From Paracoccus sp. (in: a-proteobacteria) (GTDB lineage Bacteria; Pseudomonadota; Alphaproteobacteria; Rhodobacterales; Rhodobacteraceae), in NCBI RefSeq assembly GCF_030538695.1, contig NZ_JAUNTN010000001.1, positions 124,001 to 188,000 on the forward strand: a stretch of DNA of 64,000 nucleotides, in the 5' to 3' direction. The notes beneath the pieces are model-generated. The model saw only the letters and a list, made by a program, of their open reading frames with translations, was not told where the DNA came from and searched no databases. Every line of letters begins with the position of its first letter. The stretch's first letter is position 1. Position numbers and translations under genes: made by a program. Below, in pieces: positions 3,102 to 31,022 of this stretch.

Positions 3102-4292
3102 ATGGATCGCGCCCGCCGGAATGTCGCGGTGCTGGTCGCCGCGCAGGCGATCCTTGGCGCGCAGATGTCGATGATCTTTATCGTCGGCGGGCTGGCGGGG
3201 CAGATGCTGACGCCGAACCCCTGCATTTCCACCCTGCCGCTGTCGATGATTATTCTGGGGTCGGCCCTATCGGCGCGGCCCTTGGCGGGGTTCATGCAGC
3301 GATACGGGCGGCGCGCGGGATTCAGCCTTGCGGTTCTGGCCGGAGCCATCGGCGCGGGCATATCCGCCGCCGGGCTGTGGCTGGGATCGTTCTGGCTGTT
3401 CATGGCCGGATCGCTGTTTACCGGCATCTATATGGCGGCGCAGGGGTTTTACCGCTTTGCCGCGACCGATACCGCCTCGCCCGAATTCGCGCCCAAGGCG
3501 ATTTCATGGGTGATGGCGGGCGGTCTGGCCGCCGCGATCACCGGCCCGGCGCTGGTGCGGATGACCAATGACATTACCGCCGTGCCGTTTCTGGCCACCT
3601 ATGGCGCGATTATCGCGCTGAACCTGTTTGGGCCGCTGCTGTTTTCCTTTCTCGACATTCCGCGCCCGCCCGCCCGCACCGCCGCCACGCCACCGGGCCG
3701 CCCGCTGGGGCAGATCCTGCGCGACCCCACCATCATCGTGGCGATGATCTGCGGCATGGTCGCCTATGCGCTGATGAATCTGGTGATGACATCGGCCCCG
3801 CTGGCGGTCGTGGGCTGCGGCTTTGCGCCCAATGACGCGGCCAGCATCGTCAGCCTGCATGTGCTGGCGATGTTCGCGCCCAGCTTTTTCACCGGCCATC
3901 TGATCGCCCGCTTTGGCGCGCCGGTGGTGGTGGGGGCCGGGCTGATGATTCTGGCCGGGTCGGGTGCCATCGCCCTGTCGGGGGTCGAGATGTCGCATTT
4001 CTATGGGGCGATGCTGCTGCTGGGGCTGGGGTGGAACTTTGGCTATATCGGCGCCACCGCCATGCTGACCGCCGCCCACAAGCCCGAGGAACGGGGGCGG
4101 GTGCAGGGCATCAACGATTTCTTCGTCTTTGGCGGGGTATTTCTGGCCTCGCTGTCGTCGGGCGGGCTGATGAACTGCCTTGGCGGCGACGCCCAGACGG
4201 GGTGGAGCGCGGTAAACCTTGCCATGCTGCCGTTTCTGGTGCTGGCGGGCGGGGCGCTGATCTGGCTGGTGCTGCGCCCCAAAGACGCCTGA
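3102..4292 (+). CDS. Major facilitator superfamily transporter
   Basis: A 396-residue inner-membrane protein with about 12 hydrophobic segments and the usual mid-protein break (around residues 185-205, rich in Pro/Arg). A degenerate MFS motif A is seen after segment 2 as GFMQRYGRRAG. It sits one base after eda, so a sugar acid or other organic acid is a reasonable but unproven substrate. It ends at a strong bidirectional terminator shared with the RND genes on the other strand. Confidence 0.8.
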   Translation: MDRARRNVAVLVAAQAILGAQMSMIFIVGGLAGQMLTPNPCISTLPLSMIILGSALSARPLAGFMQRYGRRAGFSLAVLAGAIGAGISAAGLWLGSFWLFMAGSLFTGIYMAAQGFYRFAATDTASPEFAPKAISWVMAGGLAAAITGPALVRMTNDITAVPFLATYGAIIALNLFGPLLFSFLDIPRPPARTAATPPGRPLGQILRDPTIIVAMICGMVAYALMNLVMTSAPLAVVGCGFAPNDAASIVSLHVLAMFAPSFFTGHLIARFGAPVVVGAGLMILAGSGAIALSGVEMSHFYGAMLLLGLGWNFGYIGATAMLTAAHKPEERGRVQGINDFFVFGGVFLASLSSGGLMNCLGGDAQTGWSAVNLAMLPFLVLAGGALIWLVLRPKDA

Positions 4293-24216: not shown

Positions 24217-27200
24217 TCAAAAGACGAAGAAGTCATCCCCGTCCAGATTCAGCCCGCGCGACAGCGTGGCGAAATGCACCCGCGCAGCCGAACCAGTGCC
24301 ATCTTCGTCGTAATACAGCCGGCCCGAGCGTGAATCATAGATGATCCGGTCCGCGCCGCTTTGCGCAACGCCGGTGGTGTTCGACCGAAAGCCCACATCC
24401 AGCGCACCGCCACGCAGCCCGGTAAAGATCGACTGAGCCAGCCAGATCGTATCCTCGTTCGGGGCAAAGTCGCGGATCGAATCGACGCTGCCATACGGCC
24501 GCGTATCTATGACAAAAACATCCGCGCCCGCGCCGCCGATCAGCACATCGCTGCCCGCGCCGCCATACAGCGTGTCATTGCCGCCTCCGCCGCGCAGCGT
24601 ATCGTTGCCAGACCCGCCCCAAAGCCGGTCGTCGCCCGCATCGCCGCTGAGCGCATCATTCCCGTTGCCGCCATGCAGCCAGTCGTTGCCCACGCCGCCG
24701 AACAGGGAATCATTGCCGTTACCGCCGTGCAACGTGTCATTCCCCAGCCCGCCCCAAAGACGGTCATCGCCATCATCGCCATACAGCAGATCGTTATCCG
24801 CATCGCCGAACAGCTGATCGTTGCCGATGCCGCCATACAGGGTGTCGTTCCCGCCACCGCCGCGCAGCGTATCATTGCCGTCATCGCCCCACAGCCGGTC
24901 ATGGCCGGTGCCGCCGTTCAACACGTCATGGCCGGAACCGCCATAGAGCCAGTCGTTGCCCGCGCCGCCGAACAGGGTATCGTTACCCGCATCGCCGCGC
25001 AGCGTATCGTGGCCATCCTCGCCCCACAGGCCGTCGTTACCGTCGCCGCCGCGCAGCAGATCGTTACCCTGATTGCCATGCAGCGTATCGTTGCCAGAAC
25101 CACCATCCAGCGTATCGTTACCGCCGCCGCCATGCAGTTTATCGTCACCGGTATCGCCATACAGCCGGTCATTGCCCGCGCCGCCGTTCAGCAGATCGTT
25201 CCCGGCACCGCCATACAGCAGATCATCGCCGGATTCGCCATTCAGCATATCGTTGCCATTGTCGCCGCGCAGCGTGTCATTGCCCGCACCGCCGTAAAGG
25301 CGGTCGTTGCCGTCGTCACCATGCAGCAGGTCGTTGCCGGCGTGGCCATACAGCACATCATCGCCCAAACCGCCGTAAAGGCTGTCATTGCCGTCCCGGC
25401 CATAGAGGGTATCGTTGCCCTCATCGCCCCACAGCCGGTCGTGGCCGCCACCGCCGTCCAGCACATCATGGCCCGACCCGCCATACAGCCAGTCATGGTC
25501 GTTGTCGCCAAACAGGGTATCGTTGCCCGCACCGCCGCGCAGCGTGTCATTGCCATTGCCGCCGCGCAGGACGTTGTTGCCGGAATTGCCGGTCAGCACA
25601 TTGGCGCGCGCATTGCCGGTGCCGTTGATATGGGCCGTGCCGGTCAGCGTCAGATCCTCGACAAAGCGAATGCCCTGATGCGTGTCCAGCGAATAGGTGA
25701 CAGAGCTTTCCACCCGGTCATGCCCGCCCGCATCAACATGCCCGCCGCGCACCGTCGCCTCGTCCACGATGTCGGTGGTTTTGGTTACGGTATAAACATC
25801 GTCACCGGCCCCGCCCATCATGACCAGCGCGCCCTTGGCGTCGATCCAGTGGATCATGTCGGTTTCAGGGGCCGTTCCGTCAAAAGAGCCATTGTTGCGC
25901 AGGCCATAGCGCGCGATTTCCCGTTCGGTCACGCTGAATTTGACGATGTGATGAACCTCCAGCACCTCGCCGGTGGCGCGGTCAGCCACATAGTCCAGAA
26001 AGCGGATGACACGGGTGCCATCGGGCAGCGTCCAGAACCCGTCGCGCTGAATCAGCATCAGCATCGAGTTCTTGTCCACCAGCTCACGGTCATTGACCGA
26101 CAGCCGTTCCTTGGTGCCGATGGAATCGGTCTTGATGCCCGCGCGGCTGAACGGCTGGCCCAGCTTGTAAACTTCCGGCCCGGTATAGGTCAGCGACAGC
26201 CGGCCGGGGGTCAGATCGGCGGAATCCATCGTGGTATGGAAACCGGGGCGAAAATTCACCAGCACGTTCTCCACATTGGTCGCATCAAGGTCGATCAGGA
26301 TATGCGCCACATCCGAGGGCAGCACCTTCGGGTAATGTTCGGAAAACGATTCGTCCGCCTCGGTGAAGTAAACGCCGTTCTTGAACCCGTCCAGCTTCAG
26401 ACCGTTGAACACCATGTCAAAGACGTTCAGGCTGAACCGGACACCGTTCGACGCAGCGGCGACCCGTTCGGAGTTCGTCGTTCCGATCAGATCAAAGTCC
26501 AGCATCGTGTAATGCGACGTATAGCCGATCACAACGCCGGTCGAGGTTTCCCAGTTCAGGAAACCGTCAAAAACCGAACGAAGATCGTTGTTTTGTTCAG
26601 GGGTGGCCTTGATGACCATCAGCCCGATCTGGGTGCCGAAGGCCTCGTTGTCGCGGAACCCTTCGATCGGGGTGCGGTTAACGGCCACGGTGTCCTGCCC
26701 GTAAGCGATACCGGGATATTCCAGATTATCCGCCAGCGGATTTTCAGGTGCGACGCGATGGAACCATGTATAGCCGTGGGTGGTGTTGATCGCCACGTTT
26801 TCAACGGCATGAACCTGACGCCCGGCGAAAAAGAACCCGTCGCCGGTCTTGCCGATGTCATTGTCGGCGGGGTCGCCCACACGTTTCACCGACCAGTCGC
26901 CATAATCGACACCAGAGGATTTGATGGCCATGTTCTGGCCCCAGACGCCGGTTTCGTTGCCGTCCTCGGCCACGAAGGCGGCGCCGAACACGTCAAAGGC
27001 CACGTTGCCGATGAAATCGGCGTGGCTGCCGTGATGAACAAAGCCCCAGCCCGGCGATCCGCTGACGGTATTGCCGATGGCGATGGCGGGGTTGTCCTGA
27101 TCCTCGACCCCGTTCTTGTGGAAATGGAACGGATAACGCGCCTTGGCGTTGAAATCGGCCGTCAGCGTCCCCGCCTTCGAGGCGTCCATCGCCGCCTGCG

Positions 27201-28185
27201 ATTTGTCGGTGCGGCCCAGATCGTCAAAGGCGGCATAGCGCACATCGACATCGTTGGAATGCATGAACATCACATGACCGCGGTGATGCGTCTGCGTGGC
27301 ATCTCCGTCGATACTGGAAAAGGTGATGTTGCGGGTCATGTTCGCGACATAGGCCGACAGATCGTCGCGCGGCGTGTCGTGGTCATAGGTCAGCGGGCGG
27401 TCCAGCGTAACGGTGTTACCCTCGATCCCGATGATCCGCACTTCTTCGTCCTGGCTTTCCTTGTGAACCACGGCGCGGACGCTGTTATCCCAGGTCCAGC
27501 CGGTCTTGTGCGTGCCGCTGAGAACCAGGTTGTCGCCGACCTGCCAGCCCTTGGGCACCTCGGCCAGTTTCAGCACCGTGTCGCCTGCCATGGCATCGGT
27601 AGCGACCTTGACGAAGGGGGTCTTTTCCGCCCCGTGAATCTCTGCCGCCCCGTGCGAGATGACGCCGCGCGACAGCAGCGCCGGGTCCCAGCCGATGTCG
27701 ATATCGCCGTTATTGGCGATCTTGATTTCCGCCTGAACGCCGGCCTGCACCGGATTGTCGGCGGTGCCGATTTCCAGCCGCCCCTGCGGGCTGACCACCA
27801 GCGTATCCACCACCATCCGGGTGTCCGAGGCCGTGGCAAAGGACAGTTCGCCATCGACACGCACGGTGAACAGCGAGGTATCGCTGACCTCGTTGTAATT
27901 CACCGAAATACCTTCGGGAATCAGCGCCTTGGCCCCTGCGGTGGGGATGCGCCCCTGATACCATGTGCCCGGATCGAACCAGTCGCCGTTCTTGATGGCG
28001 ATATGGGTCGCCTCGGCCCGTGGCACCAGCGCCAGCAGCCGCGCATGATCCGCGGCCATCCCCTCGTTCGACATGTCATGCGCATGTTCAGGCGCGTTCT
28101 TTACCGCCCGGACAAAAGCATCAGCATCGCCCGTGTTGACAGGGTAAGTCGGATGATCCGCAGAATGATCACCGTTCGTTGGCAT
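24217..28185 (-). CDS. G8-domain / RTX repeat extracellular protein
   Basis: A 1322-residue secreted protein. A G8-like domain lies at about 60-180 ([19 protein letters not shown], then a beta-rich run), followed by a parallel beta-helix-like region to about 770 resembling CEMIP/TMEM2-type proteins. A long block of calcium-binding RTX nonapeptides (GGxGNDxL, roughly 40 units) runs from about 862 to 1222. The last ~100 residues resemble an RTX C-terminal secretion domain ending DDFFVF. No N-terminal signal peptide, as expected for type I secretion, but no ABC exporter or adaptor is nearby. Related G8 proteins in animals bind or degrade hyaluronan; a polysaccharide target here is only inference. 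Confidence 0.85.
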
Positions 28186-28477: not shown

Positions 28478-28656
28478 GCACCCTGCGGCGCGGGCAATGC
28501 CGCGCCGCAGAAACCGTCTTGACCCTCAAGGGTGATGCTGCGCCCGGCCCCGGCGAAATCGCCGCGCTCATCGGTCCAGATCATGCGCAAGGTGCCGCTG
28601 TCGCGGGCGGCACAGGTGAAACCGATACAGGGTTCCGGGATACAGCCGGTTTCAGC
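28478..28656 (-). repeat. soxZ-tail repeat, copy 1 (degenerate)
   Basis: One of three consecutive copies with an exact 179-base period. It starts GCACCCTGCGGCG, includes an 11-bp stem hairpin (CTGCGGCGCGG/CCGCGCCGCAG), then a near copy of the end of soxZ (RMIWTDERGDFAGAGRSITLEG). The soxZ stop triplet is replaced by CAA here, so the minus-strand frame reads on into the hairpin sequence. Confidence 0.9.
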
Positions 28657-28835
28657 GCACCCTGCGGCGCGGGCAATGCCGCACCGCAGAAACCGTCTTG
28701 ACCCTCAAGGGTGATGCTGCGCCCGGCCCCGGCGAAATCGCCGCGTTCATCGGTCCAGATCATGCGCAGGGTGCCGCTGTCGCGGGCGGCGAAAGTGAGA
28801 ACTCGATACAGGGTCGGGATACAGCCGGTTTCAGC
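28657..28835 (-). repeat. soxZ-tail repeat, copy 2 (degenerate)
   Basis: Second 179-base copy, abutting copy 1 and copy 3. Same hairpin with one substitution, and the same stop-to-CAA change after ITLEG. Since 179 is not a multiple of three, the three copies lie in three different frames, so read-through cannot join them into one protein. Confidence 0.9.
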
Positions 28836-29014
28836 GCACCCTGCGGCGCGGGCAATGCCGCGCCGCAGAAGCCATCTTAACCCTCAAGGGTGATGCTGCG
28901 CTCGGCCTCGGCGAAATCGCCGCGTTCATCGGTCCAGATCATGCGCAGGGTGCCGCTGTCGCGGGCGGCGAAGGTGAACTCGATATAAGGGTTCTGGGAG
29001 ACAGTCGGCTCGGG
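28836..29014 (-). repeat. soxZ-tail repeat, copy 3 (the copy inside functional soxZ)
   Basis: The parental copy: the hairpin region followed by the last ~46 codons of soxZ. Similarity to copies 1 and 2 fades around 29015. The intact copy differs from the other two at scattered positions (for example EAE where they have AGA), so the duplication is not recent. Confidence 0.85.
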
Positions 29015-29206
29015 CTGCCATTCCATCAGCACGGCATCATTCAGCAACGCGCGGAACCCGGTCAGGATATTGCGCGGCATAGGCGTGCCATCGGCCTGTT
29101 GGCGAAAGCCGGTTTCCATCGGATGCGCGATCTGGGCGCGGATGCGCACGATTTCATCCCTGGCGGGGGTTTCGGTGCTGATCCAGATGCGGGGGGGTCT
29201 GCTCAT
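28877..29206 (-). CDS. soxZ: Thiosulfate-oxidation carrier subunit SoxZ
   Basis: SoxZ pairs with SoxY in the periplasm; the SoxYZ dimer carries sulfur intermediates on the SoxY cysteine. 109 residues, the normal length: PRIWISTETPARDEIVRIRA at the start, IAHPMETGFR at about 26-35, and RMIWTDERGDF near the end. No signal peptide, as usual: SoxZ is co-exported with SoxY by the Tat system. Starts 9 bases after soxY. Its 3' end is part of the 179-bp repeat array. Last gene of the sulfur operon. Confidence 0.93.
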   Translation of the reverse strand: MSRPPRIWISTETPARDEIVRIRAQIAHPMETGFRQQADGTPMPRNILTGFRALLNDAVLMEWQPEPTVSQNPYIEFTFAARDSGTLRMIWTDERGDFAEAERSITLEG

Positions 29207-29215
29207 GGTTGGTCC

Positions 29216-29710
29216 TCACATACCGCAGCCGCCGGCGGCGACGGTGGTTTCGGCGCTGGCTTGCAGGAAACGGCCATCGCTCATCCGGGCGACGGCGCGG
29301 ACGCGCATGCTTTCGATCAGGCGCAGCCGCAGGGCCACATCCACCGGACCCGTCGCCGGGCCAAAGCGGAACACGCTGGCCAGCGGCAGCGGGTTACGGT
29401 CGGCCAGCACGATCAGTTCCTCGCAATAGACATCCGCGCCGGGGTCGGCCGCGATCTGCACGCGGACGGGCACAGCGGCGGGGTTATCGGCCAGCGCGGG
29501 CAGGTCCAGCAGCAGGTCGGCTTGCTCTGCCGTGGCATCGCCCAGGAATTCGGCGATAATCCGGTCGGCCTCGGCATCGTCGGGCTGCGGAAAGGCGCTG
29601 GTCAGCATGTGCTCCTGTGCCATCGCCGCCTGCCCGGCCAGCGCGGCGGCGCCAAAGGCTGCCGCGCCGATCAGGATCTGCCGCCGGTCGGGTTCAGCGC
29701 AAAAAGTCAT
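29216..29710 (-). CDS. soxY: Sulfur covalently-binding protein SoxY
   Basis: 164 residues. A twin-arginine signal (DRRQILIGAAAFGAAALAGQ, then AAMA) leads to an immunoglobulin-like body and the swinging C-terminal arm AAGGCGM with the sulfur-carrying Cys162. The family usually ends GGCGG; a final Met replaces the last Gly. The ATG at 29710 overlaps the end of the preceding flavoprotein gene by 17 bases. The rest of the Sox system (SoxXA, SoxB, SoxCD) is absent from this window, so its partners must be encoded elsewhere or it serves the flavocytochromes here. Confidence 0.92.
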   Translation of the reverse strand: MTFCAEPDRRQILIGAAAFGAAALAGQAAMAQEHMLTSAFPQPDDAEADRIIAEFLGDATAEQADLLLDLPALADNPAAVPVRVQIAADPGADVYCEELIVLADRNPLPLASVFRFGPATGPVDVALRLRLIESMRVRAVARMSDGRFLQASAETTVAAGGCGM

Positions 29711-31022
29711 TGAACATCCCATCAATCCAAACAAAGTCTTCTTCCAGCAGATCGGGCGTGCGCACGTCAACGTCAATCTGCGTCTGCTGCACATTCCCGT
29801 CAGGGCCGATTTCGTAAAAGAACTCGACCGAGATGGCCTCGCGCGGGTCGCCGTTCACCAGCATATAGCACAGGTTGTCGGGCAGTTCCGCCACGACTTC
29901 TTCGCCGCGCACGCGCTGACCGATGTTCCGTGCCACGATCTTGGCGATATAGTTCGCGACATGCGCGCTTTTGGGGTAATGGCCGAACTGCGGGGAAATC
30001 GTGCCCATGCTGTCGCCGACGATATACACGCTGTCATCGCTGTTGGCGTGGAACAGGCGCGGGTGCATATCGGCCCAGCCGGTCGAGTTATCCTCGGCGT
30101 CGCGGCCGATCAGATCGGCATAGAACACCATTTCCGACGCCTGATGCGGCGGCATGATGATGGCTTCGTCAAAGTCGAAATCACCCGCCTCGGTCATGAT
30201 GCGCTTGTTATAGGGGTCCAGTTCGCGGACGCGCGCATTGGGCACATGGGTGATGATGTCGGGATACAGTTCCTCGAACGCGGCGCGGTATCCGGCCCCG
30301 ATGGGGGCGATCATCGGTTTCGGGTCAAGGATCAGGATCTTGGCCGGGATGTTGTTGACCTTGAAATGCCACGCCATCACGCAGGCCCGCTCATAGGGCG
30401 AGGGCGGGCAGCGATGCGGCGGCGGCGGCAGCGTCATCACGATGGTGCCGCCCTTGAAATCGTGGATCTTGTTCTTCAGCGCCACATGTTCCGCACTGGG
30501 GATATAGGCCGAAGGGAAATGCGTCCGGGTGTAATCCGCCGCCGCCGTGTCATCGCCGAACCACACGTCATAGGCATTGCGGATGCCGCCCGCGAGGATC
30601 AGGAAATCGTAATCAACGCTGCCTTTTGACGTGCGCACGATCTTGCGGTCGCGTTCGATGCCGGTGATCTCGCACTGGATCAGGCTGTAGCCGTATTTAT
30701 TGGCCGGATGCAGCATGTCCTGGGTCAGGAATGCGGTATCCACCACGTCGATCAGCCATTTGTTCGACATCGGGCAGGACCAGAAGAACGGGTTGCGTTC
30801 CAGCAGGATCACTTCGGCATCGGGGACCTCTTGCCGCAGATAGCGTGCGGCGGTCATCCCGCCCCATCCGCCGCCGCAGACGACGATGCGCGGACCGCGC
30901 CCCTCGCGCGGTTTCAGTATCGTGTCGGCGGTCAGCGCGGCGGGGGCGGCCAAAAGGCCAGTGGCGGACAGGCCAAGGGCCAGGGCGGGCGCCCCGGTCA
31001 GCAAGCTGCGGCGATGGATCAT
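29694..31022 (-). CDS. FccB/SoxF-like sulfide dehydrogenase flavoprotein (copy next to soxYZ)
   Basis: Periplasmic FAD protein of the flavocytochrome c sulfide dehydrogenase family, 442 residues. Tat signal at the N-terminus (HRRSLLTGAPALALGLSATG), FAD-binding motif GGGWGGMTAARYL at about 50-62, Cys83 in WSCPMSN at the place used for covalent FAD in FccB, and the redox cysteine regions RCPPSPYERAC and NLCYMLV. It has a longer N-terminal linker than its paralogue at 32028. One base separates its start from the transporter stop. It probably oxidises sulfide or a SoxYZ-bound sulfur species. Confidence 0.85.
   Translation of the reverse strand: MIHRRSLLTGAPALALGLSATGLLAAPAALTADTILKPREGRGPRIVVCGGGWGGMTAARYLRQEVPDAEVILLERNPFFWSCPMSNKWLIDVVDTAFLTQDMLHPANKYGYSLIQCEITGIERDRKIVRTSKGSVDYDFLILAGGIRNAYDVWFGDDTAAADYTRTHFPSAYIPSAEHVALKNKIHDFKGGTIVMTLPPPPHRCPPSPYERACVMAWHFKVNNIPAKILILDPKPMIAPIGAGYRAAFEELYPDIITHVPNARVRELDPYNKRIMTEAGDFDFDEAIIMPPHQASEMVFYADLIGRDAEDNSTGWADMHPRLFHANSDDSVYIVGDSMGTISPQFGHYPKSAHVANYIAKIVARNIGQRVRGEEVVAELPDNLCYMLVNGDPREAISVEFFYEIGPDGNVQQTQIDVDVRTPDLLEEDFVWIDGMFNDFLR

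Follow-up and report, generated by a model that had tools for sequence, protein, structure and literature searches.

In bacteria, tandem partial gene duplications arise by slippage or unequal exchange. The locus described here lies in a window of 64,000 nucleotides (the whole stretch analysed) from a Paracoccus sp., at positions 124,001 to 188,000 of contig NZ_JAUNTN010000001.1, and it is an array of soxZ tails that is real and ordinary in kind. Like other partial duplications, it consists of gene pieces set head to tail behind an intact parent, here soxZ; the extra pieces are absent from the nearest relative and carry coding damage. It differs in that the repeated unit is the end of an operon together with a hairpin, and in that three units are kept. 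The soxYZ operon end is thus triplicated, quite likely through two successive duplications, and the extra copies behind the soxZ stop codon are quite likely inert debris. The array is a clean example of the duplication of a bacterial gene end, since the parent gene, the extra units and a relative with one unit are all available and allow the order of the steps to be deduced. Among the literature matches listed, no title concerned a soxZ-end duplication or a duplicated operon end, though absence from print is not claimed.

The parent gene belongs to the SoxYZ sulfur-carrier complex, and in this respect the locus is conventional: soxZ is of ordinary full length, 109 aa, and adjoins soxY. Its product matches PF08770 at 81.3 bits (cut-off 25) over residues 13-102, and also solved SoxZ chains (2ox5, E 1.8e-14; 2oxh; 4uwq; 1v8h). 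The surroundings differ, since the pair sits beside two flavocytochrome-c sulfide dehydrogenase-like proteins and a Sulf_transp protein, and a second soxZ lies elsewhere in the genome. The latter (contig C22, 45578-45904) is 68% identical and shows no repeat signal within 900 bases behind the gene. SoxY usually ends in GGCGG; here, and in the nearest relative, the C-terminus is GGCGM.

The three units and their setting

On the minus strand the order is a flavocytochrome-c sulfide dehydrogenase-like gene, the Sulf_transp gene, a second flavocytochrome-c sulfide dehydrogenase-like gene, soxY, soxZ, the array, and a G8/CEMIP/RTX gene. The features discussed below are as follows.

29216..29794, minus strand: soxY, directly upstream of soxZ; PF13501; a listed open reading frame whose start codon is putative
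28877..29206, minus strand: soxZ, intact, ending ITLEG-TAA; Pfam SoxZ PF08770, E 4.2e-23
28836..29014, minus strand: unit 1, the true soxZ 3' end and hairpin; stop codon TAA at 28877-28879
28841..28868, minus strand: hairpin of unit 1, 11 pairs with a loop of 6
28657..28835, minus strand: unit 2, an extra copy; CAA at the stop position (28698-28700), small indels close to the unit start
28662..28689, minus strand: hairpin of unit 2, one C-to-T change, a G-U pair remaining
28478..28656, minus strand: unit 3, an extra copy; CAA at the stop position (28519-28521), followed by intergenic sequence common to the nearest relative
28483..28510, minus strand: hairpin of unit 3, unchanged relative to unit 1
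24217..28185, minus strand: protein of 1322 aa with a G8 domain, CEMIP beta-helix and RTX repeats; the next same-strand gene after the array

Each 179-base unit (28478-29014, minus strand) holds the soxZ 3' end, the stop position and an 11-pair hairpin. An initial sequence-only reading had placed the end of soxZ three times in tandem, and Tandem Repeats Finder bears this out, reporting 3.0 copies of period 179 at 28478-29008 with 92% matches and a score of 902. When the genome was searched with two adjacent units, the array gave a second match, shifted by one unit, of 507 bits at 93% identity. Other details of that reading need adjustment. A repeat of the soxZ tail it is, but the "last ~46 codons" are 45 codons plus the stop: the nominal unit begins at codon 65, the few bases at its start show hardly any similarity, and clear homology starts at about codon 67. 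The "exact" period of 179 does hold, but the units carry indels relative to each other, and aligning them in pairs gives 4, 2 and 3 runs of gaps. The change from TAA to CAA after ITLEG in both extra copies can be read directly from the DNA, as had been said.

With the period set at 60 to 500, Tandem Repeats Finder listed only the RTX repeats, two CRISPR-like arrays and the soxZ-tail array in 418,524 bases (the window and 20 further stretches, about 13% of the genome). Judged on that portion, arrays of the soxZ-tail type are uncommon in this genome.

Misjoined reads or strain variants could in principle generate such a structure, and the assembly is a draft of 62 contigs with 2.13% contamination. 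Against this, each unit is marked by differences and indels of its own, variant units of this sort occur singly in none of 125 genomes of the genus, and unit 3 passes unbroken into intergenic sequence that can be aligned to the relative. A simple assembly stutter, which the earlier reading had dismissed on the grounds that the copies had drifted, is unlikely because the units differ by 3.4-10.1% substitutions and by small indels; an assembly artefact of any kind is judged exceedingly improbable.

The anatomy of the array, a gene 3' end with a hairpin that recurs downstream, also has a superficial similarity to diversity-generating retroelements and to integration-site remnants, in which the repeats would be template or attachment-site copies. 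The changes inside the units speak against a retroelement. Going from unit 2 to unit 1, the interior changes are G-A (2), C-T (2) and T-C (2); with unit 3 as the starting point they are T-C (2), G-A (3) and C-T (2). All are transitions, and none falls at an adenine in the supposed template. The genome's only RVT_1 match is on another contig, C44, where a reverse transcriptase domain (27375-27959) lies within a 317-aa frame. As for an integration remnant, the units abut without an intervening element, and the flanks of the relative match both sides. The chance that the array is either of these is close to nil.

Single units in relatives and the order of events

The nearest relative by SoxZ (G019, 89% identical SoxZ) has one unit, with flanks that match both sides of the array, and the start of the G8/CEMIP/RTX gene stands behind its soxZ as well. 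The downstream gene was compared in this relative alone, and was also seen in L075, a related Paracoccus MAG. More broadly, an extra tail was found in 0 of the 14 Paracoccus genomes in which 1.1 kb or more could be read behind a soxZ of this type (G002, G019, G020, G027, G030, G032, G034, G066, G068, G077, G106, G122, G128 and G129), 12 of them covered by the second of two locus tests and 2 more by the first. The first test covered 12 of 15 loci, the Zoogloea loci L072-L074 being left out; in L061-L069 and L071, each with at least 1.1 kb readable, there was no further tail copy, the best match having E 0.004 over 17 bases when the trivial overlap inherent in the query is disregarded. The second test, of 17 loci, found a tail copy in no relative (best match 18 bases, E 0.006, in L043), while the same script recovered both extras from the window's own locus (L031). 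Its 15 relatives' loci represent 13 genomes by handle; L061 and L062 repeat G019 and G034, and L070 and L044 reach 115 bases. One Zoogloea locus likewise had no extra tail copy. At the level of whole genomes, a DNA search of 125 Paracoccus genomes gave matches in 30, with tandem matches only in the genome of the window.

Two loci stand outside the 14, L070 (115 bases to the contig end) and L075. The latter has exactly 100 N at 3168-3267, running from inside soxZ into the intergenic region, ahead of the same kind of downstream gene. These 100 N may mark a repeat that the assembly failed to close, or sequence that was masked, and because they span the soxZ end the array may be older than inferred below. 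A search for the triplet on plasmids gave two matching records, the better of which, from Paracoccus alcaliphilus, covers 303 bases in 3 pieces and is thus no triplet. A family-wide protein search matched 262 of 394 genomes, a result uninformative on arrays, as 40-residue fragments at about 35% identity would be expected to escape it; among the matches listed, G177 has 3. In Paracoccus solventivorans (L009 / L067) a repeat of a different kind, an 8-base tandem repeat GCCTGAGA, lies shortly behind soxZ.

The two extra units are the closest pair, with 6/177 substitutions (3.4%), compared with 14/176 (8.0%) between units 1 and 2 and 18/178 (10.1%) between units 1 and 3. Between this genome and the nearest relative, the intergenic sequence differs at 49/287 positions (17.1%), the RTX gene at 10.7% over its first 1000 bases, and soxZ codons 64-109 at 20/138 bases. 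Since the extras are closest to each other and all unit pairs fall below 17.1%, the pattern points to a duplication after the split from the nearest relative, then drift, then a second duplication. A first tandem duplication would have copied the soxZ tail, stop codon and hairpin; the copy would have drifted; and the drifted copy would then have been duplicated again, giving units 2 and 3. Each step may have been slippage or unequal exchange, perhaps aided by the GC-rich hairpin, the 3' arm of which comes to within 5 bases of the unit boundary.

Individual sites can be compared with the relative. The unit interiors contain 5 sites at which the two extras share a base that differs from unit 1; the nearest relative agrees with unit 1 at 4 of them and with the extras at 1. 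At nine edge sites of the same pattern for which the relative has a letter, it agrees with unit 1 at 6, with the extras at 2 and with neither at 1, though the alignment of the edges is uncertain.

Substitutions are unevenly spread within the units. The 134-base interiors differ by 4.5%, 5.2% and 2.2% in the three pairs, and between units 1 and 3 substitutions are denser at the leading edge than in the interior (8/38 vs 7/134, Fisher p 0.006); the corresponding contrast has p 0.056 for units 1 and 2 and p 0.116 for units 2 and 3. This could reflect either a ragged breakpoint or occasional gene conversion of the interiors with soxZ. Conversion between units would make the inferred ages look younger. 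Mosaic units were considered as proof of conversion, on the strength of two sites at which unit 3 agrees with the relative, and were set aside: among 12 relatives the first site is TTT in 7 and TTC in 5, and the second is TTG in 2 and CTG in 10.

Coding state of the extra units

Because soxZ ends at its own TAA ahead of them, the extras are not read in the soxZ frame. The earlier reading described the frame of the extra copies as running on past CAA into the hairpin, and the run-on, QDGFCGAALPAPQG, is as described; it belongs, however, to copies that are untranslated in that frame, soxZ having stopped earlier. Coding changes common to the interiors of both extras are two Glu-to-Gly replacements and the lost stop, private changes of unit 3 include two silent ones (CTG-TTG and GAA-GAG), and the indels close to the unit start disrupt the frame locally. 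Over these few sites, the changes look like those of unconstrained copies.

A more active role had been proposed, in which recombination swaps the normal SoxZ end for an extended one. If unit 1 exchanged with either extra ahead of the TAA, units would be lost and SoxZ variants with a tail would arise in the population. The unit interiors are about 95% or more alike, which suffices for recombination; the run-on frames are open, such that soxZ joined on paper to unit 2 or unit 3 before the stop position gains 39 or 57 residues; and the contrast between edge and interior hints at earlier exchange. That said, the single assembly carries the normal SoxZ end, and no long-tail or other alternative allele was seen, with one genome per species. 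The two apparent mosaic sites, which vary among other relatives as well, do not help the case. Such a switch is very unlikely, and less probable still is its extension, an operon end that serves as a recombination cassette, with a tailed SoxZ in part of the population tuning its docking on SoxY and partner enzymes while cells with the array intact retain the short SoxZ. Knowledge of SoxZ itself is unchanged by the array, which would matter more only if cultures lost units or made extended SoxZ.

Hairpins behind soxZ

The 11-bp-stem hairpin noted behind the soxZ tail, CTGCGGCGCGG-CATTGC-CCGCGCCGCAG, was found in all three units, with a single variant: 1 of 28 bases has changed, in unit 2 alone, and the pair affected is G-U on the coding strand. 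For units 1, 2 and 3 the folding z-scores are -3.72, -2.71 and -3.04, the minimum energies per 45 bases are -27.2, -23.7 and -25.6 kcal/mol, and 0, 2 and 0 of 200 shuffles were equally stable. A hairpin (z -2.93) also stands at the matching place behind soxZ in the nearest relative. Beyond this pair the feature fades. The 60 bases behind soxZ were folded for unit 1 of this genome and for 12 further sequences, from 11 relatives and the second soxZ (L023). Only unit 1, L066 and the nearest relative had z below -2; setting the nearest relative aside, 10 of the 11 other sequences gave z above -2. The hairpin is therefore common to the nearest relative and is no general feature of soxZ.

Conceivably, stacked hairpins set soxYZ off more sharply from the RTX gene or shield the 3' end of the soxYZ mRNA, in line with the earlier suggestion that the array acts as a string of RNA hairpins. 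The three stable structures, the counterpart in the relative, the retention of a G-U pair at the sole stem change and the presence of a downstream gene on the same strand would all suit such a role, and a hairpin that has changed so little may have a mild one. Yet no U-tract or T-run follows any of the three hairpins, and a terminator scan found 1 site, vs 1.2 in shuffles, which is no excess. GC-rich hairpins are present, but these are not intrinsic terminators. Moreover, the nearest relative makes do with one hairpin, a stable hairpin is not the rule behind soxZ, and a lone G-U change is a sample of one. A functional hairpin array is accordingly unlikely, and the suggestion of an RNA-hairpin string was not upheld. 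If the extras are inert debris, as preferred here, their hairpins, placed in the 3' untranslated or intergenic part, would make at most a modest addition to 3'-end formation or RNA stability.

Rfam returned four matches, all under the gathering score; the best, P36 (E 0.0045), lies on the plus strand over the hairpin and is taken as chance because the hairpin is GC-rich. Nor is the hairpin a genome-wide repeat: one other similar stretch was found, at C37:133813-133844, which reads as coding sequence and stands upstream of a frame that we take to be cas2-like.

The two CRISPR-like arrays listed by Tandem Repeats Finder are on other contigs, and in them a 24-base word occurs 17 and 20 times. One, on contig C37 (L091 15058-16337), has the repeat core GTCGCCCCCTCACGGGGGCGCGGATCGAAAC and lies beside frames that are presumably cas1 and cas2. 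The other, at the end of contig C24 (L084 709-1720), has the core CGGTTCATCCCCGCGCATGCGGGGAA at a 61-base period and continues nearly to the contig end.
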